Below, in pieces: positions 889-54,900 of a DNA stretch of 64,000 nt. This stretch comes from Caenorhabditis remanei. Its lineage: Eukaryota > Nematoda > Chromadorea > Rhabditida > Rhabditidae. A program made the position numbers and the translations under genes. The first letter of the stretch is position 1; each line of letters starts with the position of its first letter. Below the pieces are notes generated by a model. The model saw only the letters and a list, made by a program, of their open reading frames with translations. It did no database searches and had not been told where the DNA came from. The stretch covers positions 3,224,001-3,288,000 of the forward strand of contig NC_071331.1 in the NCBI RefSeq assembly GCF_010183535.1, in the 5' to 3' direction.

Positions 889-909
889 AAAACAGGGGAA
901 CGTTCAGGA
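889..909 (-). ncRNA. Candidate 21U-RNA (piRNA)
   Basis: A minus-strand CTGTTTCA core lies at 948-955. The YRNT start T is at 909, 39 nt beyond the core. Flanks are A/T-rich, with no coding ORF here. Confidence 0.45.
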
Positions 910-1204
910 TTGAAACCTCACCCCAGAAAAATTATAAATTTATTGTTTGAAACAGGGGTTATTTTCCAAAAATTTTGCAATGCCCATTCTGTCTTCAATA
1001 GAATATTTAAGCACTCACCATGTTCCCTTCTCTTGCAGCTTTTTTTTTTCAGCTACACACGGGAAATAGGTCGGTGAGACAAGCGGTGAGACACAGACTG
1101 AATTCGAATCAAATCGTCAGACACTGAAAATTAAAACCAAAAACAATTTTTCTAAGACAACAAAAAAAACTACTCCTATTATCAAAAAATTTCTCTCAAT
1201 AAAT

Positions 1205-1500
1205 ATGTTTTCCTTCCCCGATACACATATGAAATATTGCGAAATTTTGCATGCGAGGTCGCAAGGGGGGAACAGAATAACAAGAGGGTGCAACATTTCG
1301 TCACTGACCAAACAACTAGTTTATTTATTTTCAGAGCGGGGAGAAAGGTGTCTACGGCATCTGGCGCGTCTTGGACGCGCGGCCAGAAGGGGGGGGGGGG
1401 GCAGAGTGATGTTTGCTTGGTGTGTATTTTGTGTTTGTTTTTTGCTGTCAAGGTTGGCTGGCGTGTCTTTGACGCGAGAGATATTTTCTGATGAATGAGT
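1205..1500. other. Non-coding stretch with 14-base G run
   Basis: This is a locally G/C-richer island in A/T-rich DNA, holding a G homopolymer at about 1388-1401. A TTTTCAG acceptor-like site at 1329-1335 precedes an open reading of about 50 codons in either of two frames, but neither resembles a known protein. I treat it as non-coding. Confidence 0.25.
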
Positions 1501-2175
1501 TTAAAAACATTATATACGAATGGTGAAGCTCAATTAATATAGGTTTTGTTTTGAACTACATAACATAACACGTGGGAAACTGTAACCGAGAGAAGCAATC
1601 TGACAATATCGACGAAGAATACAAGCAGAATTATATGACGAATGCGGATATGTTTTTATCCTGAAACTTTAAAAAATTTAAGTGATTTTAGAACACCTCA
1701 CCTATGCGTAAATAAACAAGATGTCATTGATAATGTGAATTGTAACTAAAGTTCTTGCAACAGGAAAAATCATTGATAAAGGTAAAAAATTGAGATTAAA
1801 ATCTTAGTAAGCTCTTAAATTCGAATTTAAAAAAGATTTAATTAAGCCAGGAAACTATTGAAGAAGAAATTAATTAATGGACAATAAACTTTCATGTCGA
1901 AACAGAAAAAAAGTCTAAAAGAAAGTCGGGTATCGCTTATGAAACTTGAAATGTTATAGCCTCTTTTTATTTCTAAAAAAATGATTTTCTGATTAATTAC
2001 GTACTTGTTCTATCTTCATATTATTGAGCTCATATTCTATCTGTCAATTGTAGTTAGTATTCATTATCACTATTTTTTCTGTGAACAGGAACCCCTTTCA
2101 CTTCCGTTTCAAAAATGTTTTTTTTTTTAAATTTAGGCCGATAGAAGACAGAAATCAATTGGTATCTCTTAACCG

Positions 2176-2196
2176 GCAGAAGGAAACGTATTGTTA
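2176..2196 (-). ncRNA. Candidate 21U-RNA (piRNA)
   Basis: Minus-strand core at 2236-2243, with the YRNT start T at 2196 (40 nt). The motif and start are conserved in the duplicate at 6476-6496, although the neighbouring sequence has diverged. Confidence 0.5.
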
Positions 2197-3732
2197 ATAG
2201 ATTCTCGTCAAATATGGACATAGAATACACTACGATGAAACAGGAGCATGATTGCAAATGTGGTAATGGATCAATCCCCGCCCCCCTTTTCTTTTTGAAC
2301 CATTGAATTCTCATTATGCTTATTAGGACTTGTATCAAATCTTTTTCCAGTTTTTAGTTGAAGCAAACCTTGTTTGTGTTGATCATGACAATTATAAGTG
2401 TTGTGTTTTCATGTTATTTTGGAAAAATGAATTCTGAAATGAAAAATTGCTTTAGAGTCATGAAATCTTGGTCTTGAACACATTCACTAGTCTCTATTGT
2501 TGACGCTCCAAAACAGAAGATTTAAAAAAAGTTTTGCTGAAGATAGGAGAACGTCGGTAAACCAGTTGGGATATCGACTTTCTCATGTTTGTTTCTGTTT
2601 TGGAATTGTGCTGAAATTGTTCAGAGCAAAATTTTTTGATCATGGAGGCCTGGTTTTAGAAGCTTTTTTAGTGATAGAACACGTTTTTTTTCGATTCCTC
2701 ATTTTCTTGACAACAAGAAACAATTTTTGTTGGAAAAAATTACGAGCTTATCTCTAAGTTTATCTGTAAGTCTTATAAGGGTGTACTTTAAAAATTTATG
2801 TGTTTCAAATTGAAGGGAAACTAGAAAATTGCGCGCAATATCAATATATCAATATTGTAGCCGCCCGTCTTTTGTGAAGTTTTAGAAATTGGTTATATTA
2901 TTTGTTAACAAAACAGGACAAAATAGTTTTTCTAAAAGAACCGCTGTTTTAATAATTTCATTTTGAAGAAGATGCTATTTCTCGTAGTTAATAGGAATAT
3001 TTGACTGGGAAATACGGCCCATCAGTTGGATCTATTGAATCAGAAACTTCACAATGGTAAGAGACAGTGAATTTTTTTCTAAACATTGAACTAAAACTTG
3101 TTTCTAAAAACGATAAATTCATTGGTTTCACGAAATTTTCAGTTCAAGAACCTGAAATAAGTTGAAACACTTCAGGAAATCGATTAAAAGTGTTTGTTTT
3201 GTTCCTCGTCATATTTTATTGCATTGCTACACTTGAATAAATGAAATGGTTACTGTTATCACTACAGGTTTTCAATAGGTGCCACTTTTCATTATTAATG
3301 GGTACAACATATTTGTGATGCATAGAACGGAGGCAATTTACTATTAAGACTTAAAGTTTTATACACTTCAAACTTTTGTGAAACTGCAAATGTTTTCAGC
3401 ACAACTGGCGCATAATTCTAATGCATAATTTCGGGATATTTTAAATTTTACATTTTATGCTATTCAGAAAAAAAAAATCAGAAACGAAATCAGGCAGTTG
3501 TGTAATTAACCAAAAAAATTATCAGAACAGTAAAAATAGTTGTGTTGTGGAAAATTGACAATTCCCCACATATTCTGACGGTTTTCATGATCATTCTTGT
3601 TTTTTCAGTTTCTATAGGTTTTTTCTAGTACTGAACGTTAAATAACAAAACAAACAACATCGCTTCACCATTGAAAAAAATATAAAAACCCGCAGCTATG
3701 CTTTTTGAAGTTGGAGAAGGTCACAGTTAGTT

Positions 3733-3753
3733 TGAAACCGAACTACGAATCTA
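3733..3753 (-). ncRNA. Candidate 21U-RNA (piRNA)
   Basis: Minus-strand core at 3792-3799, start T at 3753 (39 nt). The paralogous locus is at 9206-9226 with identical spacing. Confidence 0.48.
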
Positions 3754-4042
3754 GCAAAATGTGATTTTAGACACTTTACTCATGAAAAATTTGAAACAGT
3801 TTTTATTTAACATTACACCATGGAGAGAGCTGATACTCTCAGTTGAATCCGACTAATTCGAATGAAACACTTTTTTATTTTCAGACTGTCTTCAAACAAA
3901 GAGAATCGCTATGCCATGATTGATCTGAAACTCTAAAAATAATATAATTATTACTTGAGTAATTTTCCAATTATCAGCATTTATGCAAGATAAAACTGTT
4001 TCATATTATTAATAAAAAATTGTTGAACTATTAAAAAAATGA

Positions 4043-4063
4043 TTTTCCTGCGAGGTTATCTTA
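4043..4063 (+). ncRNA. Candidate 21U-RNA (piRNA)
   Basis: Plus-strand core at 3996-4003 inside an A/T-rich run. TGAT supplies YRNT with its T at 4043, 40 nt beyond the core. This is one of the most canonical examples in the window. Confidence 0.5.
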
Positions 4064-4974
4064 ATCCGGTTTGATACTATAATCTTTAGAAGAACATTTA
4101 TTCCAAAAAATATTGTATACAACAATTATTAAAATTAAAACCGTTCTAATGATTTTTTCAAAACGGGTAACTTTTTGGAAATGACTAGTGAACATAGTTT
4201 TTGTATAACAAAATGCGTAAAGTAATGTGCAAACTATTACCTTTGATAGACGAAACAAAAACGAGTTATTCTTGTGAGCACTCATTTCAAAACTATTTGC
4301 AACCGACAGAAATAAAAGTTCAGTTTCATGGAGAAATAATTACAACTTTACTTCTGATATAATTGTTTAACATACAAAAAAGAAAAAAATCAAGTCTTTA
4401 AAAAAGTATCTTCTTCGGAAAAGTATGAAGTCAAAATAGCACATCCATTTTCTAACTAGAAATAGTTAGATTCCTCATTTCAAATAGCTGTCCCATTTTC
4501 AAATTGTCTAGAAACGCTGAAACCGAAAATATATAGTAGGCAATGTATCCACGTTATCGATAGCTAACCCGTTGTCAGTTGAACAAAGCTCACTTCACTT
4601 TTGTGCATGAAATATTCAATTGCTCATTGAAAAAAAATTACCTGGAAATACTAATACAACATAGGCGAATCGGAGAATTTTGAAAAAAATCAAAATCTGT
4701 AGAATTAGGTTAAAAATCAAAAAAGGAAAAGATGATTCGTAACGAGCTAGAAATTGTAGTGTAAATTTGGGTTTTTGAACGAAATAAGATTTGTAGAAAA
4801 GTTCAACATCGATTACAATTGTAATCAAGAAGAATGAACTTATAGAAGAAATTCTCATGCAGAAACAGAAAATGAAGGTTGTACACATTTTCAAATTATT
4901 CAGCTGTTGCAGGCAGTTTTTTTCTTCTCAAGTTAAGATTTCCAGTCTTTTGCTAATGTTATTCATCACAACTT

Positions 4975-5085
4975 CTACCCGCTACTCTTAACTTCTTTTC
5001 TCTGTTTTAAGACATTAATATCTTGTTTGGAAATTCCTTGAAGAAAATTTGACTGTGCAACTGCGAATAAAAATGCCACGAACAT
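4975..5085 (-). pseudogene. Possible signal-peptide exon remnant
   Basis: A 36-codon ORF starts MFVAFLFAVAQSNFLQGISK, a short hydrophobic stretch ending A-Q-S that resembles a secretory signal. It stops at 4975-4977; a GTTAAG donor-like site shortly before the stop could instead end an exon. The duplicate at about 10130-10190 keeps the start (MFVTHLFAIAQS) but ends after about 21 codons. No convincing downstream exons were found in either copy, so this is either the decayed first exon of a small secreted-protein gene or chance. Confidence 0.2.
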
Positions 5086-5477
5086 AAGTTGAAAGTTTTG
5101 CTCCAACTTGGTAGGATCAGAGATAAATGAGATTTCATAAAGATCATAACATTCTTTAGAATTTCCACAACCTTTTCAACATTAAACAAAAATATATGTA
5201 TACATGTTTCAGATTTATTTCATAAATCTTCATTTTTTGTCTATGACCGTTAAAGACGGTTTAAGAAATCAAAAAAGTGTTCGCAAGCATTTTCATATAA
5301 ATCTAATAAAAACTCAAAAATTCCAACTTATTAATCTCTGTGAATGGAAATATATTCAGTTAAAAATAACTTTTTTGTTGGAAAAAGTTCAAAAACTGAT
5401 TAAAAGTTCACAGAAAAACTCTCATTAATCAAAAATAGAATCGACAACTGAGATTCAAGATCCTGTTATAAATAACT

Positions 5478-5498
5478 GGAACAAATAAATAATCGTGA
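5478..5498 (-). ncRNA. Candidate 21U-RNA (piRNA)
   Basis: Minus-strand core at 5536-5543, start T at 5498 (38 nt). A plus-strand core at 5590 lies about 50 bp away, making a divergent pair. Confidence 0.42.
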
Positions 5499-5634
5499 AC
5501 ACAATTGTTCAGCTGCTAAAATTTTTACGGTACTCTGAAACAGATCAGAAAAACTTGAAACAATTCAAGAAGTTACAAAACTACTTTATCTGTTTCAGTT
5601 GTTTGATTTGTGTGCACATTCACTTCAATAGCAA

Positions 5635-5655
5635 TATTCACCTCTCTTTTGGTTG
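5635..5655 (+). ncRNA. Candidate 21U-RNA (piRNA)
   Basis: Plus-strand core at 5590-5597. Two overlapping YRNT starts are possible, with T at 5635 (38 nt) or 5638 (41 nt); the first is given here. Confidence 0.42.
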
Positions 5656-5690
5656 TAGGTTACCTTTTCTTTAAAAAGAATTCAAATACA

Positions 5691-6293
5691 CCCGAATTTC
5701 TTTTCGGGAATTTGTTCTGTTTCGACATGAAAGTTTCTTATCCATAAATACGTTTTTTCATCAATTGTTTCGTGATCAGATAAATTATTTTTTGTCCAAT
5801 TTAAGAACTTACTAAGATCTCGATCTTGTTAAAAACTAGTATTCCCAAATGTGAGTCCTACCACGCTAAAATTATTATTTTTTCTCAATGTTTTTATTTG
5901 CAACTCAATTTTCTTCCATCTTTAAATAATTGATTTTTCCTGTTGCAAGAACATTAGTTCATAAAACTCAATCCAAATAACCAATGATTTTTTAACTATA
6001 CAGAACTGCACGAATAACACTAACATGTTTAATGTTTCAAGAAAATATATTTTCACCTACATATTTTACATTCAATAGAATTTTGCTAGTATCTTTTTAA
6101 ATATCTTTTAAAAAATAGCGTGATAGTACTCACATTTGGGAATACTAGTTTTTAACAAGATCGAGATCTTAGTAAGTTCTTAAATTGAACAAAAAATAAT
6201 TTATCTGAACACAAAACAATTGATGATAAGGTATTTATGGAAAAGAAACTTTCATGTCGAAACAGAACAAATTCCCGAAAAGAAATTCGGGTG
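5691..6293. repeat. Inverted repeat, ~170-bp arms
   Basis: Arms at about 5691-5860 and 6128-6293 are near-perfect reverse complements, separated by about 265 bp of A/T-rich spacer. Each arm carries one CTGTTTCG near its outer end (5717-5724 plus, 6258-6265 minus). The arm sequence also matches the start of the segmental duplication (about 1790-1930). No terminal target duplication was seen, so a rearranged local duplication is as likely as a mobile element. Confidence 0.7.
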
Positions 6294-6358
6294 TAGCTTA
6301 TCGAATTTTTCAACTGTTTCAGCTGCTACCTATTTCTAAAAACTTAATTTCTATTTAT

Positions 6359-6379
6359 TAGCGTGATAGGTAAGTTGTT
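6359..6379 (+). ncRNA. Candidate 21U-RNA (piRNA)
   Basis: Plus-strand core at 6314-6321, YRNT start T at 6359 (38 nt). Confidence 0.4.
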
Positions 6380-6475
6380 AGTATCTACGATCCCTATTTT
6401 TCCTGTTAACCAGTTTTCCACTTCCGTTTCCATAAAATATTTTATTTAGGCCGTTAGACGATAGGAGTCAATTGA

Positions 6476-6496
6476 TTTCCAGATTTAAACTTGTTA
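6476..6496 (-). ncRNA. Candidate 21U-RNA (piRNA)
   Basis: Minus-strand core at 6536-6543, start T at 6496 (40 nt). It is the duplicate of the locus at 2176-2196. Confidence 0.5.
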
Positions 6497-7313
6497 ATAG
6501 ATTCTCGTCAAATGAGGACATAGAATACACTACGATGAAACAGGAGCATGGTTGTAACTGTGGTAATGGATCATGATTATGACAATTGTAAATGTTTTGT
6601 TATCATGAGATTTTGGAAAAATAAATTCGGATGTGAAAAATTGGTTTATAATTATGAAATCTTGGTCTTGAATACATTCATTAGTATCTATTTATTATTG
6701 TTGACACTTCGAAGCAAAAGTTTAATAAAAAAGTTTTTTCTGAAGACAGGAAGACGTTGGTAAATCAGTTGGGATACTCATGATTTTCTGTTTTGGAATT
6801 GTGCTAAAATTGATTAGAACCAAAATTTTTGATTATCAAGGCCAGGCTTTCAGGCTTTTTAATTCAGGTATTGATGTAACACGGTTTTTTCGATTCCTCA
6901 TTTTCTTGACAACAAGAAATAATTTTTAGTTGAAAAAAATTACGAAAAATTTAAAAATTTGTGTGTTTCAAATTGATGGGGAAATAGAAATTTCGATCCA
7001 ATAGCAATGTTTCAGATCCCTGTATTCTGTGAATTTTTTAAAAATTGTTTACTTTCTTGTTAACAGTACGGGTCATCATCGTTTTTCTGAAAAAAAACTG
7101 ATGTTTTAACTATTTCATTTAAAATAAGATGATATTTTTCATTGTTATTTAGGAATTTGACATGTTAACCTAATTCACCAGTTGAATCTGTCGTATCAAA
7201 AGTTTTACAATCGGAAGCGACAGTGAAATTTTCAGTTGACGAAAATAACTTGAAAACAGTCGACACACTTCTGGAATCCGATCAAAAAAAAATTTTCGTA
7301 CATGGCTTAGTAC

Positions 7314-8847
7314 CAGACTCGGCAAATGTCGCCAAGTCTAGGCCAAACTCTGCGGCTGTACAAGTCTAGGCGCAACCTCCCACCAGTCTAGGCCCAACTT
7401 TGGGTGATCAGAGCCAATGATAGAGGGTCACCAAGTATTGGCCCAATGTTGGATATTGATTTTTTCTTTGGCAGCCACTCATTTAAATTTATTTTATTTT
7501 TCTGTTTTTACCCATTTTTACGAGTTTTCAGTATTTCCCTTGTTACATTTATCATTCCGAACTTTGTTTCCGAAATATTCAGATTTATATGTTTTAAAAC
7601 TTCAGAGAAACTCAATGGGTTCACACCGGAACCCTTTCAGTGAAGAGGACAAATTGTTCCCAAAAAACGAAAACTCGGATTCGCAAAAGTAGCAGTATTT
7701 CTCGGTGAGCTAATAACAATTTGCAGTTCCAAAAACTTATAATTGTATTTCTAGAGAACCTAGAAAGCTGTCAACTCTTCTCAATCATACGGAAACAACG
7801 GAAGGAAATTTCAAGAACACCGCCAATGGAAAGTTAATAAATGTGAGAATTATTCTTGAAAGTATGAAATTTTATTCTTGAATTTTATAGCTCATAATCA
7901 ATCGGATTTCTGGACAACGTCTACATCACCTATGCTATCATCCCCATCATCTTCGCCTACATCAGATCCGAAGGAATAATAACTGACTCCTTCGAAAATA
8001 TATGTAATTTTTCTTTGTTAAACTTTGTAAATTTTTCTTTGTTAAACATGATTGTCCTTCGTTTTTGATTTTTTTTAAATCTAATAAATTTATGAGTTCT
8101 AATGAATTATATTTAAGCAAAACAGGAGAAAATCAATAAGATATTCCAGGGCCTGGACCGCGCTTTCACCAAGCCTTCCACCAGTCTCCCACAAACCTCC
8201 CACAAGTCTTGGCCTGCTTTTACGTAACACTTGTGGGAGATGTGCGCCTAGACTTGTGAGAGGCTCGTGCTAGACTTGGCGACACTTGCCGAGAGAGCTG
8301 TGCGGAAGTAAAATTTTTTGAAAAGGAAGAAGGAAGAAGGAAGAAGGAAGTGAAATTTTCAAAAAGGAAGAAGGAAGAAGGAAGAAGGAAGAAGGAAGAA
8401 GGAAATAACTTTTTCAAAAGGGAAGAAGGAAGAAGGAATAAAAAAGTGAAAAAAGCCCAGGAAGAAGGAAGAAGGAAGGAAGAAGGAAGGAAGAAAGAAG
8501 TTGGGTTCCGAACCGGGAAATCGGAAGTTAATTTTGAAAATGACCAATTTGAGGAAACTTTTTTCTAGTCATCTCTGAAAACGAATTTTGATGTTGTTTC
8601 ATACAAAATTCCGTCAAAAACCCCCAAAATTCCGCCAAAATTCCGTCGAAAATTTCAAAATTTTAGTAAACTTTTCAACGGAAGAAGGAACAAGGAAGAA
8701 GGAAAAAAACATTTTCAAAAGGGAAGAAGGAAGAAGGAAGAAGGAAGTAAATTTTTCAAAAGGGAAGAAGGAAGAAGGAATAAAAAAGTGAAAAAAGCCC
8801 GGAAGAAGGAAGAAGGAAGTCGAAGGAAGGAATTCCGAACAGCTCTG
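7314..8847. mobile_element. Chimeric hAT-like MITE with 8-bp TSD
   Basis: Perfect 8-bp direct repeats CTTAGTAC (7306-7313 and 8848-8855) flank a block starting CAGACTCGGC and ending CAGCTCTG. It has two parts. The left part (7314-8292) has its own inverted ends: CTCGGCAAATGTCGCCAAGT near the left, and its near reverse complement at about 8268-8293. The right part (8293-8847) starts GAGAGCTGTGCGG and ends CAGCTCTG, and consists of GAAGAAGG-type repeats; it matches the family at 63394-63924. One target duplication spans both parts, so the left end of one element and the right end of another seem to have moved as a unit. Confidence 0.75.
7603..7978 (+). pseudogene. Exon-like captured gene fragment inside the MITE
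   Basis: An AAAACTTCAG acceptor is followed by AGAAACTCAATG and the reading MGSHRNPFSEEDKLFPKNEN to about 7687. A second exon-like block (about 7755-7833, after TTTCTAG) reads EPRKLSTLLNHTETTEGNFK. A third (about 7891-7978, after TTTTATAG) reads NQSDFWTTSTSPMLSSPSSS and ends PTSDPKE-stop. Acceptors, lack of internal stops and a Ser/Pro-rich tail suggest real exons, possibly host exons captured between transposon ends. Exact junctions and phases are uncertain and I do not recognise the protein. Confidence 0.3.
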
Positions 8848-9205
8848 CTTAGTACATATTTTATTGCACCGCCAAACTTGAATAAATGAAATAGCTACTG
8901 TTATCACTACAAGTTTTCAATTGATAGCACTACTCATTATTATTGGTTTAGTGAATTTCAAAATTGATTATAAATATTTTTTGAATTTGAATTTGAAACA
9001 TACTTTGTAGTTATGTGTTGAATTTGGAAAAGGTCACAGTTAACTGAAACTGGCATTCGATGTTTTTGATCTAGATATCCCAAAATAGTTTTGTTATTGG
9101 AAGTAAATGGTTGGCTGGCTGGGAAGATGACTTCGTAAGGATTCTGAATCTGATTCAAAAATTTTTCAGTGTCAAAGTGGACCGAGAGGCCAGTTTTCAG
9201 AAAAA

Positions 9206-9226
9206 AAATTAAGAACTACAAATCTA
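9206..9226 (-). ncRNA. Candidate 21U-RNA (piRNA)
   Basis: Minus-strand core at 9265-9272, start T at 9226 (39 nt). It is the duplicate of 3733-3753. Confidence 0.48.
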
Positions 9227-10807
9227 GCAAAATGTGATTTTAGGCACTTTACTCATGAAACGTTTGAAACAGTATCTATTTTACATTAGATCATGGAAAG
9301 AGCTGATACTTTCAGGTGAGTCTCACTAATCTGAATATACACTTTTGTTAGTTTCAGACATGTCTTCCAACAAACAAGTAATAACACTCGGTGCCATGCT
9401 TGAAATTCTGGAAAGATTTTAATTTTTACTTCAGTAACTTTCAAAATCTCATTTTTATTCAAGAGGAAATTGTTTAACATTATTAATAAATAGTTTCAAT
9501 GTATTGAAATCTTGGTTCTGTTTCGTGTGAAATAAACTAAATGTGAGAACAGCATTTTGGGAGAATATTTATTCAATGAAAATATCGTGTAATCAATTTT
9601 GAAAATTCAAACCAGCCTAATGATTTTTTTAGAATAGGTAATCTTTTTTGAAACGGTTTGCAACCGACAGAAATTTTGTGCACCAAACACGAGTATGGCA
9701 GGATTACTAAAAACATTGGAACTTGGAAATAGTTATAAAGACGAAACAGGAAAATTTGAAAAAAAAACAACATCTGCACAATTACCGGTTTTTTTAAAAG
9801 GTTTTTTTTGAAAAAAAAATGATTTGCAGCAAAGTTTAAATAGCTTTATAATCGAATCAAGAAGGATGAACTTATGGAAGAAATTCTCTTGCAGAAACAG
9901 AAAATGTATTCAAACTTTTCAGATGTTGCAGGACGTTTTTTCTTCTCAGGTTTCTAGTATTTTCCGATAATTCTATGAAATTATTATCCGCTACAATTAA
10001 CTTCATTTCTATGTTTCAAGAAATCAGTATCTTGTTTGGAAATTCAGTGAAGTGCTAGATGTCGAAATAGATACTCAGTCACTTGCCAATTGTTAAAATT
10101 AGTACCGTCAACTACTTATTTTCGAATTTAGGATGAAATTTTGATTGTGCAATTGCAAATAAATGTGTAACGAACATATGTTGAAGTTTTTCGTCAAACT
10201 TGGTGAGAGATATTTATAAAAATCAGTTTATTATGCAATTTTTTAGTTGCTAAGACTGAGAGCATTCTATATAATTTTAGTTTTTTCTTGTCTGCATTTC
10301 AAAACCGTAAAAACATGAAATCGATTTTCAAGATATTGGTTGGAAATTCGAAACGTAGCTTACTTTGCTGGATGACTCGCGGTTTTTAGCTCGATCATTC
10401 AGATAATAATAACATCCTCTTCATTTGAAATTTGTTAACAAGTAAAATGTTTCAGTATATAGAAAGTTTCACTGCTGTTAACACGAACTGGGTGTAAATT
10501 TATGAATCATACCAAAAGGTGCATAATGGTTCATTTGGGCAATAGTTCTCATAACAGTAGTTTGAAGCACAAAATTTAATTCCGTTGCAAACATTCAGAA
10601 ATGTCAATTCTGAAATTGTAATTAGAGTATTTTGTGTCAGATCAGAAAGTACACAAATTTCAAGCTGACCTTCTAACATTGTGCTGCTTTGTTTCATGAA
10701 AATCTGGCAAATTTTGATGTTCAAAATGTGAATTTACAAATTTAAAATGCATACTTGTTTACTGTTTCAAAGTGTCCAATTATTCTGTTTATAAATTTAA
10801 ATTTTAT

Positions 10808-10828
10808 TCCGTTTAATGTCCCCGAGTG
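10808..10828 (+). ncRNA. Candidate 21U-RNA (piRNA)
   Basis: Plus-strand core at 10762-10769, YRNT start T at 10808 (39 nt). Confidence 0.45.
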
Positions 10829-11050
10829 CATCTTACACGTCGCAAACTTAAAGGCGGCAGTTCGGTTAAAACATTATGGTGGTAGATTGACCTGGCGTTT
10901 AACCTGGACCTCATTTTAATGAAAAATGTTTGGAGTACTATTTTTTGGTTTGTTTACAGTCAGAGTTATCAGTTAGTTTTCTTCCGTTTCTCATTCATAT
11001 AATATTTTATTATTGGGTGGTACTGTCGTAATACTAGAGGTAGATGATGC

Positions 11051-11071
11051 GGACTATGGAAAACAGCGCTA
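11051..11071 (-). ncRNA. Candidate 21U-RNA (piRNA)
   Basis: Minus-strand core at 11111-11118, start T at 11071 (40 nt). Confidence 0.48.
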
Positions 11072-11869
11072 TTGCGAAGACGTATTTAGAACCAAACTTA
11101 ATTTGGGGAGTGAAACAGAATCATATATGATTTTATAAAATTAATTCAAACATTTCTAACTCTATCATATCTTCGTGAAAAAACAGATTTATATGATTCC
11201 CAGCCCCATGTCCCCTAGTCAAACACAACACAAAAATTAGTTGTTTCATACCCTAGAAAAACTGATGTACTTTTTCAGCAAACAATTCATCAGATTTTCA
11301 TAACAGAATATAGTTTTAAAAATTGTGAAAATATTACAGTTTCTGTTTGATGACTTTTGTCACTTGACTGTAATTTATTATTGAATACAGAAATCAAAAA
11401 CGAAATACAATAAATAGAGTAAGTATGATAAGAAATGTCAGAATCCGTGTCCTCTTCTAGAGCTTTGTTTTATTATTTTACTCGGCACTGTTTGTAAAAA
11501 TAATCTGCTTATTTTAGTCTCTGATTTCTTCCATCGGTAGGAGTGCCAACGCCGGGTTTTTGTGGGAGAGTAACTAAAGTAATTGTTGAGGTCGATTGCA
11601 ATTTTACACAGTAGAAGTTCTAAAAACCTTTACGTAAAAAATATCCCGTATTTGCTGTACCAACAAAACACAGAGTAAAATAGTGATATTAATTTTTCAA
11701 TGTTCCATGAACAGCGACAGGAGCAACATTTTGATTGGCAATGTTCTCATTGCCGCGTTTTATTATTATTTTTCTGTCATTTTTTGCTGGTCCACTTATA
11801 TTAGGAACATAGTGCATCGGTTTTTATATGTTATAACCGGATAAGATAAAACAGTGACAGTAGAAGAAC

Positions 11870-12167
11870 GCTTCAAAACACAAAAATCCGAAAAATCCTT
11901 TTTTCAATCCTCTCAAAATCCAAATAATAAAAAGTTTGGACAACTTTTCCGCTGACAATAGCCAGTCTAGTTGTACCTCGCTGCTATCTAAATTTCAATC
12001 AAAATTTTTTTCGGGATTTTCAGGAAACGCATTTGTTGAAAATTGAGATGTTTGGAGAACGTTTATTATCAGCATCCTATTATTATCGGGGTTTTTATGT
12101 TTCATTGCGGTGTTCTGCAAAACGTTGTTTCACTACTGACACGAAGTAATAAGTCAGTGAAATAACG
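11870..12167. repeat. Partial palindromic-family element abutting the gap
   Basis: This matches, with divergence, the arm of the palindrome at 18776-19287: the block of AATCCGAAAAATCC and CTCAAAATCC words near 11890 and the GTTTCATTGCGGTGTTCTGC block near 12099-12118. It runs into the assembly gap, so its other end is unknown. Confidence 0.65.
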
Positions 12168-12804: not shown

Positions 12805-12837
12805 TGTGAATGATTGTGGGGTGGTGATGGTTTTCTT

Positions 12838-14284: not shown

Positions 14285-14295
14285 TTCCTTTAAAA

Positions 14296-44198: not shown

Positions 44199-44206
44199 GG
44201 TGCATT

Positions 44207-44515
44207 GTCACTCTTTTTACCTTCGCCATCAATGACAACACCCGCACGCACTCCTCGCAGTCACCTGCTCGTCATACCGTCAACTTTATCATTTTTATCT
44301 TCCTTTTTACCTTTTTTGGTGCTTTATCAAGGGATTCCGCGATAGAGAGCGTAATAAATGGGTCATTGAATACATGTGTACTGTTATTTCCGGTTGCATT
44401 GCTTATCTTACACAAAAATAGCCATTATTCATATTAGATTGCGTGATAATAACGGATTAGGCAATAGTCTCCGACCGCTCTTACTTGCCTTCTCCACAAT
44501 AGATTTTATAATTTT
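44207..44515. other. Right part of the inserted segment
   Basis: Sequence unlike its surroundings, with AATAAA at 44352-44357. It ends near 44505-44515, where homology to the empty-site copy resumes (TTTTTTTCTGACTATGAGCA versus TGTTTTTCTGAG near 49535). Confidence 0.4.
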
Positions 44516-45548
44516 TTTCTGACTATGAGCAAAATTGTCAAGTTTTGAAAAAATGCAGTAGGAACTAAATTTTTTTAAGGCTTCATCAAATCTTCAACTG
44601 CAGATCTTATCATAGAAGTGTAGTTCCAGAAATGTTAGGGCAATTGTTTAGTTTTGACTCAAGAAAAGAAGAAAAAGTTGAAACTGTGTTTTTATGATTT
44701 TGAATCACTAATCATTCTGAACATAACACTGGAATACTGTTAAGAATGAATAAAATTTCAAAAAATTACTAGAAAATCACCAATTTCACATGGCTTCCCT
44801 GTTCTTGCCTCCACAACTGCCCATATTACAACAATAACCGGAACAGTTCAAAAGCCAAATGAGAAGAGACAGCATGATTGATGTATTGCTTCATGAGACG
44901 TTTTATGGTTTTTTTGAAACGTTTAAAATTTATTTTCACCTCACAATCAGCTGAAAGTTTGGACGTCAGTCTTTAGCACTTGCCGTCAACTATTACACAT
45001 TTTCAGGGAACAATATTGCCGATGTAATAATAACTAAAAAATAATGTTTCAAATATCAGTTTTCTGCATATATACGTTTTTTAAAAAGACATTTCTGTGG
45101 TTTTTAATATCAAATTTGATAATCATAACTTCTGAAAAGACAACTCAGAGCTGGTTGTCATTGTTTCTATGCGTTTCGGAATGTGTAGTTTCGAAATGAA
45201 TCATAAAATCCAGAAACTATTTTTAAACTTTGGACTTAAATAAAAAAAATCAAAGTTGACTCGAAAAATGGATAATAATTCCTGAAATTCTGATAGTGGG
45301 TATACATACATATGTAGGGAATTTGAAGCCGATGAATTATTTAAAAAAAAACACTTACGCGCACATGATTTAATGAAATCATAGACTCAATGATATTGTA
45401 TTTTTTTCTCCAAAAAATTACTGAAATGTTACAATTAGGGATTATCGGTTTCTCGAAACAGTATCGAATGCCACTTTGAATGATGATTTGATAATGTTGT
45501 CTATTGCAATTTTAAAAAAGTTCGTATAAGTATACTTCTACTTTTCAG

Positions 45549-45653
45549 CTGCCTGTGAATTATGAGAACACGAATATCGTATTATTGAAAATCAACAGAA
45601 TCAAGGACGCCGTGAAAGAGTCCCAAGTTCCTCCAACTCCTGACCCTAATTAG
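45549..45653 (+). pseudogene. Terminal-exon-like fragment
   Basis: After a CTTTTCAG acceptor the frame reads LPVNYENTNIVLLKINRIKD, then AVKESQVPPTPDPN-stop. The acceptor, the lack of stops and the Pro-rich tail look like a last exon, but no upstream exons were identified within 1 kb. The duplicate at about 52822-52900 keeps the acceptor and a related start but is frame-broken. Confidence 0.3.
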
Positions 45654-46400
45654 TTAATTAAGAATTTTAAAGAATTTAAAGAATTTTAAGGAGAAGGCAT
45701 GCGTGGAGGACCGCGAATGCAGTCTGTCCTGATCATACTAGCAACCGAAATTGGACGGGTCTTGAGATAACTCGCTTCAAAATGACAATTGGAGTGGATC
45801 ACTCTATCAAGTTGTAGATCTCGGTGAACTCTACACAAGTCTATTATCATTTTCACTATGAGTTTAGTGAGAGCCGCTGTAAAATTTGTTTGAGAATCAA
45901 GGCCCGGCTTAACTCATTTAATGGCTGTATATATTTTTGTGGTTCATTTTCAAAAAAATTGTCTCTTTCTATTTTTTGAACCATTTCTTTTCATTTTCTG
46001 CGGGAACTAATGAATTTTCAAGAAGATGATAGAAACTTTTCAGCCCGAAAAAGACAATGAAAATGAAATTTCAGGAAAGCCGCGGCTTATAACGGCTGAC
46101 GACGGTTCATTTTCAAACATCCTTGCCGAGTACTACCGAAACACAAACATCGTCTATTGATGCTGTTCGAGAATTCATATTTTCGAAAATTTTTCTTATT
46201 TCCAGTATTCCTGAAACAGTAATATTCCCATTTTTCAATAGCTTATGTGTGGTGACCAGCATGACCATCAATTGAGCTCGACAATAAAAATACATTTTCA
46301 GTTTCATCTACTTCTGTTAACTGTAACAAACTATCCGACAACATTGTTGGAGCTACGACATAAAGGTTTTCAAAATTCACACATTCATTGTAGAGAACTA

Positions 46401-47990
46401 CAGTGCGCGTCATAAAGATAGCCCCCCTAGCGATTATGTCAGATCTGGCTCAGCCGTAAGTTTTCTTGAAAAATGGGTAACAGCATTCGATTCCTCGGGC
46501 GAAATAACCCCCGGGCGCAAAGTTTCATGAATCTCCTACAAAAACTACGGGTACACCATCGAAAACTTGAAAAATAGGCCGCGTCATAAAGATAGCCCCC
46601 CTTGAGAATTTTCAATTTCTCCATAATTTTTTTCCGTTTTTTCACTTAAAAACGTTTTCAATCGATAAAATTCGCATTTTTATCAGCGTTATCTTATTTT
46701 TTTCCACACTTTTACAGCAAAAATTCTACTTTGAAGAGCCAGTTTATGCTAAAAAGTGCAAAAATCGGGATTTTTGAGGAAAACGATCGTAATTCGCATT
46801 TCAAATAGAGGGAGCAATATTTTTGCACGGTATTTTACTTTTTTCGGTACTTGCCTGATAATTTTATCTTACATTTGGCTGAAAAAAGCGGCTCTGAATG
46901 CTCAGAGGCCATCCCAATGTGAAGGAAATTCACTTAAAAAGATGGTTTTGAGCTTCTTCAAGATGAAAAACGTTTGAGAATCTGTTTTTGAAGTGGAATC
47001 TTTTTGAGAATGGTTTAAATAAACTTTTGTTATGTCACTAAGACATTTCTAAGAGACCTTACCAGGTTACAGATAAGTACTAGCAGTAGAAATCATGGTC
47101 AAGTTATTTTCACAAAGGAATATTGTGTTCTCGAATCAATAGTAAGTTTAAGAGATTTAAAATTATTCGAAATGAGTGAAAAAACCTTCAAACAAAAACA
47201 ATGTTCGTAGTTTCTTTTCAAAAAGTTGTCTACTCATCGTTAAACTCACGATATCCAGTGTTTTACTAGTGAAAAAAGATTTGGGACACTAGATCATGAT
47301 TTGAAAGACTAGTACTTGTTACTAATTGGTCGAAGTAGTTCAGCTATGTCTTGGCAATAACATGAGACTTGATTCTACTATTTCTTTCAAAAACTATACC
47401 ATAAAAACAGATTCTCAAACGTTTTTCATCTTGAAGAAGCTCAAAACCATCTTCCTAAGTGAATTTCCTTCACATTGGGATGGCCTCTGAGCATTCAGAG
47501 CCGCTTTTTTCAGCCAAAAGTAAAATAAAATTATCAGACAAGTACCGAAAAAAGTAAAATACGTGCAAAAATATTGATCCCTCTATTTGAAATGCGAATT
47601 ACGATAGTTTTCCTCAAAAATCCCGATTTTTGGACTTTTTAGCATAAACTGGCTCTTCAAAGTAGAATTTTTGCTGGAAAAGTATGGAGAAAAATAAAAT
47701 AAAGCTGATAAAAATGCGAATTTTATTGATTAAAAACGCTTTTAAGTGAAAAAACGGAAAAAAATCATGGAGAAATTGAAAATTCTCAAGGGGGGCTATC
47801 TTTATGACGCGGCCTATTTTTCAAGTTTTCGATGGTGTACCCGTAGTTTTTGTAGGAGATTCATGAAACTTTGCGCCCGGGGGTTATTTCGCCCGAGGAA
47901 TCGAATGCTGTTACCCATTTTTCAAGAAAACTTACGGCTGAGCCAGATCTGACATAATCGCAAGGGGGGCTATCTTTATGACGCGCACTG
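46401..47990. mobile_element. Foldback Tc1/mariner-like MITE, ~590-bp arms
   Basis: TA on both sides (46399-46400 and 47991-47992). Ends CAGTGCGCGTCATAAAGATA followed by a C6 run. Arms 46401 to about 46993 and about 47404-47990 are near-identical reverse complements; the spacer of about 410 bp has no ORF of note. The identical 68-codon ORFs in each arm (46439-46645, 47746-47952) are symmetry artefacts. No transposase. Confidence 0.88.
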
Positions 47991-49018
47991 TATAATGTAA
48001 TTTAAAAAAAACCTTTTCTATATTTATTTAGTTATTATTTTCGTTCCATTGATATCTGCTCTGTAACATTAATTTTAAAATTCAAAATAACTTTACTTTC
48101 GTTTCAGATGTCTACTGTTTTATTACAAAACTATAAAAAAAGAAGATGATACAAAAGTCAGTTATCGAAATGGAATTTGTCTCTGGGAAAACTAGTAAAG
48201 AAATAAACCTCGTTCCGGAAAAATGACATGTTTGTGACAGTGAATGCTACAAAAGTGTGATACAACAGTAATTCTTTTCCTGCTTCTAGAGAGACATAAA
48301 CATTCATTCTTCAAAAAACGAACGCTATCAATTCCGCTCCGAATCAAAACGCCCTGATTGATATGACTTCGCAGAAAATATTATATGGCACAGTGCAAAA
48401 AAAAAAACTAACTCGGTTCCAAAATGAACTCGTCAGACAGATGAATAGCTTGCTTATCTCACTATCAGGGAACTGTGAAAACAGTTCATCTTCCAGTTCC
48501 AGTTCTAGTTACGCTTTATTTCTGTGATGATTCGTAATATAGAGGCAATCCAACTACAAAACACATTTCCTTCGCACCGAAGATTCGTTTCGAAAACCAT
48601 CGCTCAATATAAAAATTTGAAGAAACTGGAGATATTGAAAAGTAAATGTCGTTAAAAAATGAGAACTTCCGTTGTTCAGTAACTTACCATTTGATTCAAT
48701 GCAAAAAAGAAATAATGTTGCAACTGGTTTTTTGTTGATTTTCTTCTGAAAACTGCAAAAATTACTCTGAAATACCAGAAAAAGCCGCGAATGTTGTAAA
48801 ACAAAAAATTCAAGATTGCCATGAAACAGAGATCTATTATTTTGCAGCTCCGATTACGACACGGGTTTTCCAAGCCCATTACTGTTTATTTTTGAAATGG
48901 AAGAAATAAAAATAAACGTTCATTGATATTTAATTGTTACAATAATAAAAACTGCGTGCTCTGAATTAGTTGTCTGAATTAGTTATTAGTTGTGAATTTT
49001 TCCAAGATGCACAAAAAA

Positions 49019-49039
49019 CACTGCTCTAATGATGTGCCA
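49019..49039 (-). ncRNA. Candidate 21U-RNA (piRNA)
   Basis: Minus-strand core at 49078-49085, start T at 49039 (39 nt). Confidence 0.44.
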
Positions 49040-50279
49040 TTAATTTATAAATTTTTGATATAGACTCATTCAATTTTTGAAACAGACAAAAATTATGTTT
49101 CGTACATTCTTTTTATTGTACACTCTCTGATGACTTTCATTTCCAGAAAATGAAAGGGACATAGTAAAAGAGCAGTAAATAAGGGATTATATCACTTATC
49201 ACTATAACAGTATTTGCTTTACAACACATGAAATTTTCTCTTTTTCTGGCTAGTATGATTTGGATTTGACTTCGGAAAATAGAAACAAATTATTTCAGCT
49301 TACGGGAAAACAATGTTATTAAAAAACCAAAAGATGATAAGAAGAAAGCTGACCAACAACTGAACTTGCTTGTGACTAAAATAGAGCTCCACCGTAATCT
49401 ATACGCGATTGACCGCAGAATAAACATCCTATATTTATAATTATTGTGAAAGTGTTACTTTTGCAAAAAACAAAATCCGTTTCAACTTCAAGACAAAACA
49501 TTCGATTTTGACATTGTATATTGTTTTTCTGAGAAAAATTGTTAAGTTTTGAGAAATCACGCCTTTCAGTTTTCGGTGAAACAATTGAAATTTCATGTTT
49601 CAATGCAATGTGAACAGTCTTCACGTTTTTTCTCGATATTGCGATTTTCTCGATATTGTCGTCTCGCATATGCAACTTGTATGTTCACAATTGTACAAAC
49701 AAAAGAGTATGTTAGCAAAGCACTGGTAAAAGTGTTTTAAATTGAAAAATTACAGCAAGATCTAAATTTTTAAAGCTTCATCAAATCCCCAACTGGAGAT
49801 CTTATCATAGAATGTCAGGAAAACAGTAATTTAGTTTTGACTTAAGAAAAGAAGAAAGAAAAACAACTGTGTTTTTATGACTTGAACTCACCAATCATTT
49901 TGATCGAAACCCTGGAATACTGTTAAGAATCTGTTAAAAAGATGAATTTTTAAAAAAATCACAAGAATAACAGCCAATTTCACACTGCTTGATTATTATA
50001 TAACACTTTTATTAGGAAACAGACCTTTTCGTTTTTTATATGTATGTAATATCGTCAACCCAGCACACTTTTCCGTTGATACAACTTTTACTTCTTTTTT
50101 GAAATTGTAACTTTCACACAAAAAATAAGAGTCTGTCTATTTTCTCCTATCGCATTCATTGAAAAAATCGACTTCAAGATGAACGTTGTTTTTTCAATAA
50201 TGTGCCAGACGGTGCTAATCCTAATAATTGAAAATTTTGTATAATTATGAGATGGCTTATCGAAACAGTAATCTCACTA

Positions 50280-51952
50280 GGGAAGGTCACCGAGTCAGTG
50301 TGGAGTTATGGGGCGTGACCTATATCATTGGAAAGCTGAGAAAACGCTGATTCAAAATATATATTCAGTTTTTGCCTTCGAGGTCTGGTATTCGAGAAAA
50401 ACGAGGTCAAAGTTTGGACCCCTAACAAGTCATTACATTACCGACGTGTGTAAAATATCGGCAGCGTGGTGTAGGTGGTAGCAGAGGTGGTCAATGCGCA
50501 ACCACTTTTTGGTTTTTTGAGTTTCGTTTTTTGAATCGGGAATTGATTTGTTTTCAAAGTTCTGTTCAAATAGATAAAAAGAGAAATTTTAAAAAACCAA
50601 CAAAAAAAAACTTGGTGGCCGGCCGGGATTGAACCAAAAAGTGGTTGCGCATTGACCACCTCTGCTACACAGGTGAACCGCTGTGGATCCTATATGTGAT
50701 CGCGCGGTGGCGTATATGCAGCTAGAAAGAATCAGGGTTGTGTCCTATATGTGTCCATATGGATCCACGCGCGGTCGGCCGAAAACGTGTGCCGCATATG
50801 GATCGTATATGGATCGTATATGGAACCTATATGGATAGCATAATCAGCAGTAATTCTACCAATCACATTTGGTTGATTATTCTGTATGAAACACTAGAAA
50901 GACATAATTCATTGTTGTGATTGTTATGTAATGCTATAATGTTGTTTTACTTTTCCTTTTTCAACTTGTTCACTTTCCATTTCTCGGACTTGTACATTTT
51001 CTCCGTTTTTTCTCAAAGTTCTTCATTTTTCAACAGATAATGGCAATATTTCGTGAAAAATTGAAAACCACACAGGATTTCATATTTAACAAAAATTAGA
51101 TTGGCGGTTATAAAACAATTTTTGATGCTCGAGTTTTTCTTTTAACTCTGAAAGAAAAATTATACCCGTCGATGAAATTCGAAGTCTTGTATTTTGACTT
51201 TACTTCGGTATGACAACTGCTTACTTTCTTACCTTTAAATCCACCTGAAAAATATGATTTCTTATCATACCGAAGTAAAGAAAAACACAAGAATCGAACT
51301 TCTCAACACAAAGTAAAACTCAAAGTTTCTTGAGAAAACGACAAGTTTTCTATTGAAAAAAGACATTTCCGCAAATTTAAATATTTTTATTTTTACTTTT
51401 GAAGTTTGCCATTATCTGTTTTCTGCAAAAAAAATGAAGAAAATCGGTGAAAAACTACGAGAAACAGAGAAAATGGGCCCGGACTTATAAAAAATAATGT
51501 CGCGTAGATTTACGGTAAACAACACGCCCACGTGTAATTCCGGAGTGTCGTTGCGGCGGCCGGCCGCTAGGCTCAAATATGGACCATATATGGAACGTAT
51601 ATGGATGCTATATGGATGCACGCGCGGCCAGTACAAGGAAAAGACGACAGCACATATACGCCACACGCGCGGTCCACGTTTCATTTGGGGACACATATAG
51701 GACGCTATATGCACACTTTCACATATAGGATCCATCGCGGTTCACCTGTGCTACCACCTACACCACGCTGCCGATATTTTACACACGTCGGTAATGTAAT
51801 GACTTGTTAGGGGTCCAAACTTTGACCTCGTTTTTCTCGAATACCAGACCTCGAAGGCAAAAACTGAATATATATTTTGAATCAGCGTTTTCTCAGCTTT
51901 CCAATGATATAGGTCACGCCCCATAACTCCACACTGACTCGGTGACCTTCCC
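50280..51952. mobile_element. Foldback element with nested insertion
   Basis: TA at 50278-50279 and 51953-51954 with ends GGGAAGGTCACCGAG and its reverse complement; a 3-bp TCA is also present at each side, so TA or a 3-bp target cannot be separated. Arms of about 200 bp (50280-50480 and 51735-51952) continue into related inner zones rich in ATATGGATC-like words and CGCGCGG. The left arm is interrupted by the 185-bp element at 50481-50665. The spacer holds a further ~35-bp inverted repeat around TTACTTCGGTATGA (51203-51216 and 51266-51279). Confidence 0.75.
50481..50665. mobile_element. 185-bp TA-flanked MITE with tRNA-like arm
   Basis: Flanked by TA (50479-50480 and 50666-50667); ends GCAGAGGTGGTCAATGCGC and its reverse complement. 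The right arm of the host element shows the uninterrupted site. Read on the minus strand, the right end runs through GGTGGTCAATGCGCAACCAC, then GGTTCAATCCC, then GGCCGGCCACCA, resembling an anticodon-like stem, a T-arm/B box and a CCA-like 3' end. Confidence 0.7.
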
Positions 51953-52681
51953 TAGTCAGTTGCATATATCTTGATTGGACCGAATTTGTTCTAGACAGGC
52001 GACATCAAAAAAATAGCTTTGAAAAGTATACCGTTGACGAACTTCCGATTGAATTAAGTCAAAACTGTATTCTTATTTCCCTTAAGAATTGAAACAGTGT
52101 TATTTGTTTTTTTTTAGCCTGTGGAGCTTGACTATGAGTTTAGGTGTTCTCCACAATGATGGTTATGGATATTATTGTTCTCAGTCCAAAGTTTGAACGT
52201 CTGTATTCAGCACTTGTCTTTGAACAATTATTTATTGCCGGGCAACCATAATGCCGACTAATCCAGAGGACTTCATTGAATTCAGTATTTACTGAAAACT
52301 AAAAAATAATGTTTCAAATATCAGTTTTCTGTAGCAGCAATAATTTGAGATATTCAAAATGAGTCAGACTTGAATCTAAACATTTTTCAACTTTTTTCAC
52401 GATTTAAAAGAAAAAAACAAACGTTTTCCCTAAAAATGCATATTTATTACAAAAATTCTGATAGTATGTATGTATTATAGAACGGATCAGATTTTCAATA
52501 TCCAAACTGCGTAAAATACGGAACACGGTGATAATTCAAAATTATAAGAACTTTGATACTAATAAAAGCGATGTCTATAATAATTTATCAGCAATTTGAA
52601 ACCGATGAATTGTTTTTAAAAAGGACTTACGGACACATGATTTGAAGGAAGCATTGACTCAATGATATTGTATTTTTTTAC

Positions 52682-52702
52682 AAAATAAGCTGCTGTAAAA
52701 AA
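52682..52702 (-). ncRNA. Candidate 21U-RNA (piRNA)
   Basis: Minus-strand core at 52740-52747, start T at 52702 (38 nt). The duplicate at 45454-45461 has the variant CGAAACAG, so the exact core is specific to this copy. Confidence 0.42.
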
Positions 52703-52869
52703 TTATAGTTGATGGTACAATAGAACATTATCGGTTTCTTGAAACAGTATTGAATTCCACTTTGAATGAATGATTTGATATGTTGTCTATTCAATAAAAA
52801 ATGTTCAAATCAGTAAACTTCAGCAAACTATGAGTTATGAGACCGGCAACCGAATTTCGTTCCATTGAA

Positions 52870-54900
52870 GAGCAGCCGAATCATGGGAGTCGTGCGCCAG
52901 CTTTTGAAATTCACAAAATGTTATTTCAGTAAAAAATTTCATGTTTCTAAAGTATGTTATTCAAGAACCATTGTGCAGCTTTTCCGGTGTTTGGAAGAAA
53001 ATTGTTTATTTATTGATAAACACTGTGGACTGCGCTCAAAAAGAGTCAAAGGAGCACCAGTAAATTGGTGAAGGGAATTTGGTGACTAAGTGAAACGTAA
53101 ATTCTTATTTAAAAAACACAGTTTCTTTCGACTTTTGACTAAATATATGTTTTTTCACTTGTAAACTGTGAACATACTTTTCTTGAAATTGAATTCAAGA
53201 GGATTAAGGATTAATGTGATTTTATATGAAATTATTTCTGTTTTGGGTGAAACATGAGAAAATAGTGTTAATTTCATATGGTTATGAAATTAAGGTTTTT
53301 TTTGCCTTTTTTGAATTCTTTATCTAGAATTACTTTGTACTTTATTATCAGTTGGTTTAAAAAAATTTCGCTGTCACAGTTTTCTGTGAAGAAAAAAAAA
53401 TGATACTTCGAATTAGTCAAGTATTATGATCTGCGCACATCGGGTAATGAAAATTGAAGAATGAAACAATTAATGTTTTGAATGTCGAAAAATTTATCAG
53501 AGAGAGAATCTGGAATCACTTTAACAAAGCAATGCATATAGCTAATATTTAATGAAAAAAACGCGATTCCGACAAAAAAACTATCATGGAGCATAACATA
53601 TTTTAATTTTTTAAAGGGAAAAAAAACAGTAAATTTCATTAAGACAAACCTGATTTTTGAAAGATTGTTATATTAACGGAACACTAAAAATCAATTCCTC
53701 TCTAAATTATGTCAGTTTGCTGTATCAGGAATATTTTGAATAACGTTACTACTGAATTCTCAACGTTTTGGTGTTTCCAAATTCCCAGCATTGCCTTTCT
53801 TGTATTAGCACGGCACGCTTTGACAACCGCGCTCTACTCAAAGAAAATTGCGTAAGAAATTGAGAGACTCGGAAAAAATAAATATTTCTCCAGGGCATTT
53901 CGTGGAAGCGCTTTGTAAGAATTGTGCCAAGCTTATAACTAAAATAATTTTCATGTTAAATTATGTACAAAATTTTTGATACGACAGTCAACAATTATTT
54001 ATTTTTCAAAGTGACAAAATAGCTTCAAGAAACAGTAAGCTTCATGATCACTTTTAATTATAATTAGGTTAACAAGAATTAGAAACCAATAAATATTCCT
54101 TGCATTCTTCATATTAGCACGGCACGCTTCTTACAATCGCGCTTTACCGAAACCAAAGAAAACTGTGTGCGAAGTTTTAATTATTCACTTTATCTGGCTA
54201 TTTCGTTGAATATCTATCTTTTTTCATTTAACTAACCTTACTATTAGTTACGGCTATCTCTTCCCCTTGCCATTATGTCTGTATTTACTACCCACCGTTT
54301 TACTTTTTTCCTCATTTCCCGATTTCTAAATATCATGTCCTCCTTTATTTTTTTAACTCGAAACTGTCTCGTGAGGGACAGTTTCTAGTCTTTTGTATCA
54401 TTATGTTTTCCTTTTAGTCACAATAAATAAATAAAATAAGTTGAGAGACTCAGAAATGAGAAGAAATTTTTCAAGGGCATTTCGGTGGTGCGCAGTTGTA
54501 AGAACTGTGCCGAGCTAATATAAGGAAAGTTCAAAAAGAACTCAGTAAAGCTGAACTTCTCTTTAAAATATATCAGTTTACTGTGACATGAATGATTTGA
54601 ATAACGTAACTTCTTAAAATGAGGCTCTCTAGAAAATTTTTATATTAGATTATATGGGTATTCAAAAACTTGAATTTACCTGTCTTTAAAACTTTCCAGT
54701 TATATAGTGAGAAAAAAAAGATCAATTTGAAAAATCACCTTGGATTTATTCATCGAGGAACTTATAATCAATTAATTATGTACATAATTATAAGGAGAGT
54801 TTAGAGTATTTGAAGAAGGAAAAATGCAAAACTTGAGAAGAACCACAAATAAAAATTGGAAGAGACCGGCAATTTAACAAGGAAAAAGAAAGGCGGGAAG
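52870..54900. other. A/T-rich intergenic DNA
   Basis: ORFs of 60-71 codons only, with no recognisable product. Two related blocks (about 53785-53945 and 54105-54525) share TATTAGCACGGCACGCTT, GAGAGACTC and GGGCATTTCG words and resemble parts of the family at 57.6-63 kb. The last motif-like site is the variant AGAAACAG at 54028. Confidence 0.4.

Follow-up and report, generated by a model that had tools for sequence, protein, structure and literature searches.

A predicted domain of type I 21U-RNA genes on chromosome IV of Caenorhabditis remanei PX506

Introduction

The question raised by positions 3,224,001-3,288,000 of chromosome IV of Caenorhabditis remanei PX506 (the window, 64,000 nucleotides (nt) in all) is whether its many copies of the Ruby core CTGTTTCA are the promoters of PIWI-interacting RNA (piRNA) genes, as a first-pass annotation of the sequence had proposed. 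Our analysis indicates that the window almost certainly lies within the large piRNA domain on the left of chromosome IV and carries some 80 predicted type I 21U-RNA genes, distributed over the two strands. The motif arrangement is confirmed and fits a known and expected kind of feature, type I Ruby-motif 21U-RNA genes, and the candidate genes are separate units among ordinary genes and repeats. The core, its spacing, the initiator, the use of both strands, the position on chromosome IV and the higher conservation of promoters than of bodies between paralogs all fit the promoter-and-start reading of the first-pass annotation.

Exact cores and their start sites

The window contains 38 exact CTGTTTCA cores, while 100 dinucleotide shuffles of the window had a mean of 4.27 (standard deviation 2.0, maximum 10) and none of them reached 38. 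A YRNT (Y, pyrimidine; R, purine; N, any base) with its T 38-41 nt beyond the last base of the core was found for 29 of the 38 cores, compared to 26.8% of random window positions (binomial P = 2.8e-10). The T was located at exactly 38, 39 and 40 nt for 11, 11 and 6 cores, which corresponds to 45, 46 and 47 nt from the first base of the core. The four-wide distance windows tried elsewhere gave a YRNT for only 10 or 11 of the 38 cores. The T of a YRNT is also frequent at 6 nt (7 of the 38 cores) and 7 nt (12 cores) after the last base of the core, which corresponds to 13 and 14 nt counted from its first base; this second peak falls within the large motif itself. When the cores of other chromosome IV samples were included (130 cores), the start peak was 28, 42 and 26 and the near peak 12 and 22. 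Across 105 sites A/T-rich columns were present, the strongest of them 18-19 nt after the first base of the core.

The first-pass annotation had listed 36 exact cores, 28 of them with a start; the excess and the proportion hold, apart from two cores that had been missed, and both strands carry cores as claimed (19 each). No start at 38-41 nt was found for nine exact cores, at 15180, 15769, 16299, 24060, 26444, 36559, 46212, 48822 and 52090. Eight of these had been named correctly, and 15769 had been omitted. The core at 52090 has a T at 37 nt, just outside the range used here; the spacer between the core and the T of YRNT in type I genes is reported to be about 35-42 nt (PMC3597512).

Variant cores and the number of genes

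To cover variant cores, we scanned the window with a 40-column matrix ending before the start, which was trained on 145 promoter-like sites found in twenty 10-kb samples of other parts of chromosome IV; a start was counted when a YRNT lay 44-48 nt from the first base of the core. At score 10 the matrix found 106 sites in the window, 86 of them with a start, as compared with 19 and 4 in the reversed window and means of 16.4 and 5.8 in 20 dinucleotide shuffles (at most 10 starts in one shuffle). At scores 6, 8, 12 and 14 the start-bearing sites numbered 124, 104, 64 and 37, while the shuffles averaged 19.1, 11.6, 2.6 and 0.8, respectively. The sequence thus predicts about 80 type I 21U-RNA genes in the window at score 10, and since the counts change with the score, roughly 36 to 105 depending on the threshold. 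The first-pass annotation had suggested scanning with the published Ruby matrix against shuffled sequence, and the expected difference was obtained with our newly trained matrix in its place. Its number was too low because variant cores also bear starts, for instance 13 of 21 ATGTTTCA and 12 of 16 CTGTTTCG cores. At score 10 another 56 candidate promoters that have a YRNT start and a variant core, among them ATGTTTCA, CTGTTTCG and CTGTTTCT, were found between positions 36 and 63089. A few of the 56 will be due to chance, as the shuffles average 5.8 in all.

The exact cores are unevenly distributed, with 33 in 1-40000 and five in 40001-64000 (P = 0.0009). The start-bearing matrix sites mirror this drop only in part: there are 10-21 per 8 kb before 40001, three in 40001-48000, 13 in 48001-56000 and three in 56001-64000. 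The domain end had been placed at 54100, and the last exact core (52740-52747) lies 1.35 kb before it; a variant matrix core does lie near that point, at 54035 on the minus strand.

In C. elegans CTGTTTCA is reported in a male-expressed example and ATGTTTCA in a female-expressed one, and the first letter of the core matters (PMC3597512). Therefore, if this can be transferred from C. elegans, the list of exact CTGTTTCA cores may lean towards male-type piRNAs.

Distribution over the genome

In the whole genome (130,466,896 bases in 186 contigs) there were 19,000 copies of CTGTTTCA and 6,781 of the reversed word. Twenty 10-kb samples of chromosome IV contained 93 cores, 74 of them with a start, a fraction comparable to the 29 of 38 in the window, while ten pieces (55 kb) of the other five chromosomes contained five cores, only one with a start. 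Searches with extended motifs gave 41 places for ATTTTACTGTTTCAAA, 40 on chromosome IV and one on V (reversed control 0), 70 for AATACTGTTTCAG, 52 on IV (control 4), and 381 for TTTACTGTTTCAAA (control 25), where 96 of the first 100 listed were on IV. Among the matches listed, those on chromosome IV formed two broad blocks, at about 0.7-13.5 and 18.5-24.2 Mb, with scattered matches beyond them, five of these in the first 70 kb. The four samples at 13.7-17.3 Mb contained three cores and no start. When the excess of exact cores is scaled by the window's ratio of matrix sites to exact cores, the sequence would predict about 29,000 genes genome-wide at score 10 (13,000 to 38,000 over the scores tried).

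Several observations weigh against assigning the window to such a domain. Nine of the 38 exact cores have no start, and some of them are likely to be background. Five of the 20 chromosome IV samples were free of cores, two of which (at 4.1 and 20.9 Mb) lie inside the blocks. ATTTCTGTTTCAT was less specific for chromosome IV than the other extended motifs: it matched 90 places (control 9), 49 of them on IV and 41 elsewhere, including 14 on the X chromosome. The 16-mer ATTTTACTGTTTCAAA is uninformative on the neighbourhood of the window because all its matches on IV lie above 10.2 Mb (none of the 41 below). Its inner 14-mer, unlike the full 16-mer, is common below 10.2 Mb, and the flank of the promoter may not be the same throughout the chromosome IV domain. 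Finally, no dip in G+C content was seen downstream of the 21U body at 151 sites (0.32 compared to about 0.33). In C. briggsae, A/T-rich motifs have been reported downstream of the body. The downstream low-melting stretch is reported to be weak in clustered species (PMC6436959).

Comparison with known piRNA systems

The candidate genes resemble the type I genes of C. elegans in their 8-nt core CTGTTTCA, A/T-rich spacer, YRNT start and use of both strands, and also in the two blocks on chromosome IV and in core variants with A in the first position. In C. elegans these blocks are reported to measure 2.5 and 3.7 Mb (PMC6436959); the motif-bearing spans on chromosome IV of C. remanei, at roughly 0.7-13.5 and 18.5-24.2 Mb, look wider. 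By analogy with C. elegans, a promoter complex would bind each Ruby core, RNA polymerase II would initiate at the YR, two bases ahead of the T, and its short capped product, about 28 nt long, would be trimmed to a 21-nt RNA with a 5' U and loaded on the Piwi protein PRG-1. We infer the transcription, processing, loading and silencing of the candidates from this analogy.

The piRNA clusters of C. briggsae are reported at 0.02-7.1 and 13.0-15.0 Mb of chromosome IV and 9.8-12.0 Mb of chromosome I (PMC9683057). C. remanei shares with it the large left cluster on IV, in which the window would fall by position, as well as the core and the YR initiator. It differs in that the extended-motif matches listed gave no sign of a cluster on chromosome I: the matches there were 2 of 70 for AATACTGTTTCAG, 4 of 90 for ATTTCTGTTTCAT, 0 of 41 for ATTTTACTGTTTCAAA and, for TTTACTGTTTCAAA, 2 of the 100 matches listed first out of 381. 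The dispersed piRNAs of the Pristionchus type have a Ruby-type core as well, but are described as spread over five autosomes within active genes, in contrast to the single chromosome seen here (PMC6436959). According to the same source most species of the genus have piRNA clusters on chromosome IV, and its main text does not name C. remanei (PMC6436959). According to a review, the 21U-RNAs of C. remanei have already been profiled and are 2-3 times more numerous than in C. elegans (PMC6468775). We found no paper mapping C. remanei piRNA clusters on the PX506 assembly among the open-licence papers searched.

Paralogous copies and alternative explanations

Diverged copies of parts of the window were found on chromosome IV near 3.70-3.72, 4.24-4.26 and 4.69-4.72 Mb. 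We picked by hand 23 families of paralogous core-bearing sites, whose members come from the window, from the samples and from 11 out of 20 short stretches fetched from the genome. Some of the families share a segment (those of 5543 and 5590, and two pairs of L011 at 1716 and 1727). Two irregular members were kept, L011 at 1727, which has no start at 44-48 nt, and L040 at 135, which has a variant core. The stretches L044, L049-L053 and L056-L058 were left out, as no usable core with a start was found in them, and so were the L040 copy of the 38094 site, the L041 copy of the 38635 site, the identical pair 17711/21266 and several alignments with a core-less mate.

The promoter, from just behind the core up to the last base ahead of the T, was more identical than the 21-nt body in 18 of the 23 families (mean difference 16 points, P = 4e-5), although the families come from a single genome and were located via the core, which biases them toward conservation beside the core. 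Likewise, the sequence 20-100 nt before the core exceeded the body in 16 of 23 families (P = 0.002), and upstream identity exceeded downstream identity in 17 of 23 (P = 0.002). No clear difference was seen between the body and the sequence 21-62 nt after the T (body lower in 12 of 23, P = 0.16), while body positions 7-20 were lower than that sequence in 16 of 23 families (P = 0.049). In the eight families with homology on both sides the P values were 0.14 for the whole body and 0.008 for positions 7-20. The mean identity of positions 7-20 was 61%, compared to 55% for unrelated sequence with the same aligner, and in five of the 23 families the body was kept at least as well as the promoter. Therefore, the promoter and start appear to be kept between paralogs while the guide is not, which suggests function, with the caveat that the core served to find the families. 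Across different Caenorhabditis species the promoter is likewise reported to be kept and the 21U body not (PMC3597512).

These comparisons bear on the possibility that many of the sites are former piRNA genes, decayed or silent (e.g. in active chromatin), and that the domain is largely a relic. The core or the start has been lost in the L040 paralog of the 38094 site and the L041 paralog of the 38635 site, and nine of the 20 fetched stretches had no usable pair. Furthermore, of the Ruby motifs in active chromatin of C. elegans less than 2% are reported to have detectable 21U-RNAs, as compared with 74% in regulated chromatin (PMC6436959). However, neither the higher identity of promoters than of bodies nor a start-bearing fraction like that of the other chromosome IV samples fits widespread decay, and we regard a relic as very unlikely.

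Alternatively, the motif could have no promoter function and simply be carried along by a repeated element or by duplication of a gene family. Duplications and inverted repeats abound in the window, and eight of its 38 exact cores are within paralogous copies of others, but when one core was kept per group, 23 of 30 still had a start (binomial P = 1.7e-8). When the 136 cores from the window and from the sampled pieces were compared, only 19 pairs had similar flanks at the score used, and the distance to the YRNT is constant although the letters in between differ. It is thus hardly credible that the motif is a mere passenger.

Equally implausible are sites of another class of short RNAs dependent on RNA polymerase II or SNAPc, such as genes like those of small nuclear RNAs (snRNAs): the Ruby motif is reported to be related to the SNAPc motif (PMC6436959), but the window gave no Rfam match at the gathering score of any family, a concentration of thousands of sites on a single chromosome is not what snRNA genes would show, and the initiator spacing matches that of 21U-RNAs. 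A chance origin was rejected, as the shuffles and the reversed sequence stayed far below the counts of the window, and so was a transfer RNA context, since no transfer RNA was found in the window.

Possible rewriting of guides after duplication

The duplicated segments provide a natural experiment on the separate evolution of piRNA promoters and guides in one genome. In several families the homology stops, or breaks into insertions and deletions, close to where the 21U body begins, and some of these families regain it farther along. One could imagine that segments are duplicated and the guide is then preferentially changed or replaced while the promoter is kept, giving rise to new piRNAs, but we consider this rather unlikely. 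The alignments are only suggestive; the changes would be small deletions, insertions and substitutions beginning at the 21U start, brought about either by diversifying selection or by transcription-linked mutation. Promoter constraint alone may explain most of the contrast between body and promoter, and there are exceptions: the L016 pair retains most of the body, and the pair in the inverted repeat is identical.

We counted distinct alignment ends at most 5 nt from the predicted T on the promoter side. The two discovery queries gave 4 of 57 ends (null 0.45, P = 0.004) and 4 of 37 (null 0.20, a count reached by no shift). With the test fixed beforehand, two further queries gave 0 of 49 and 2 of 54, which was not significant (joint P = 0.13), and neither were the counts within 15 nt (0 and 3, P = 0.24); these queries were not wholly fresh, as they contain the already inspected families 14217/25389 and 15160/24040/26424. 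Pooled, with the discovery data included, 10 of 197 ends were found compared to 1.23 expected. For these queries 24 of 75 and 51 of 54 rows were kept, and 38 distinct ranges were obtained from 79 rows and 33 from 137; the rows dropped were the query's own place, near-identical copies and multi-chromosome repeats.

Candidate genes with exact cores

The predicted T positions of the candidate genes can be checked directly with small-RNA reads. In the first 12 kb, candidates on the minus strand are located at 889-955 (core 948-955, T 909), 2176-2243 (core 2236-2243, T 2196), 3733-3799 (core 3792-3799, T 3753), 5478-5543 (core 5536-5543, T 5498), 6476-6543 (core 6536-6543, T 6496), 9206-9272 (core 9265-9272, T 9226) and 11051-11118 (core 11111-11118, T 11071). 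The cores at 2236 and 6536 are paralogs, as are those of the 3733-3799 and 9206-9272 candidates. On the plus strand there are 3996-4063 (core 3996-4003, T 4043), 5590-5655 (core 5590-5597, T 5635 or 5638), 6314-6379 (core 6314-6321, T 6359) and 10762-10828 (core 10762-10769, T 10808). The 5590 candidate is back-to-back with that at 5478-5543, and its paralog alignments stop at most 5 nt from T 5635.

Between 14 and 27 kb the plus-strand candidates are 14217-14284 (core 14217-14224, T 14264) and its paralog 25389-25455 (core 25389-25396, T 25435), 14811-14876 (core 14811-14818, T 14856), 17711-17776 (T 17756), 21907-21975 (core 21907-21914, T 21951 or 21955) and 22619-22685 (core 22619-22626, T 22665). 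The 17711 gene lies in one arm of an inverted repeat, and its identical second copy is in the opposite arm at 21208-21273 on the minus strand (T 21228). The remaining minus-strand candidates of this part are three paralogs, 15101-15167 (core 15160-15167, T 15121), 23981-24047 (core 24040-24047, T 24001) and 26365-26431 (core 26424-26431, T 26385); a multi-chromosome repeat (about 23514-23979) starts 22 nt past T 24001. Head-to-head pairs of cores 12 nt apart occur at 15160-15187, 24040-24067 and 26424-26451. These copies adjoin an exon with an FkbM methyltransferase domain, and in each pair only the minus-strand core has a start.

Further along, the plus-strand candidates are 33420-33485 (core 33420-33427, T 33465), 34713-34778 (core 34713-34720, T 34758), 38094-38162 (core 38094-38101, T 38139 or 38142) and 38635-38702 (core 38635-38642, T 38682). 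For each of the last two, two paralog alignments stop at most 5 nt from the T (T 38139 in the case of 38094). On the minus strand are 36670-36736 (core 36729-36736, T 36690), 37367-37432 (core 37425-37432, T 37387), 49019-49085 (core 49078-49085, T 49039) and 52682-52747 (core 52740-52747, T 52702), together with a weaker candidate at 52033-52097 (core 52090-52097, T 52053 at 37 nt).

Duplications, repeats and other elements

The searched pieces of 1-12167 (1900-6700, 9130-9400 and 10500-12167) are near-identical to the unplaced contig C56, with the similarity running up to a gap of 100 N at 12168-12267; the contig may be an alternative haplotype or an assembly duplicate. Positions 1900-6700 have a second, nearly 100% identical copy about 82 kb away on chromosome IV (3,143,767-3,148,564), which is a recent segmental or assembly duplication. 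Two nested inverted repeats with arms of 817 and 515 nt, both 100% complementary, occupy 17252-21732 and have related copies on C56 as well as at 3.71, 4.25 and 4.70 Mb; the same candidate piRNA gene is present once in each 817-nt arm. The 787 nt after the N gap (12268-13054) have 100% (rounded) matches at 1.947 Mb of chromosome IV and 16.290 Mb of chromosome II, which suggests a recent mobile element. Copies of the repeats at 23514-23979 and about 35560-36130 were found on all six chromosomes. At 28753-33214, inverted arms of 200 nt (95%) surround an open reading frame (29424-29954) with the helix-turn-helix of a Tc3-type transposase. Another open reading frame, at 56055-56639 in the end of the window that is free of exact cores, has a LIN-8 domain match.

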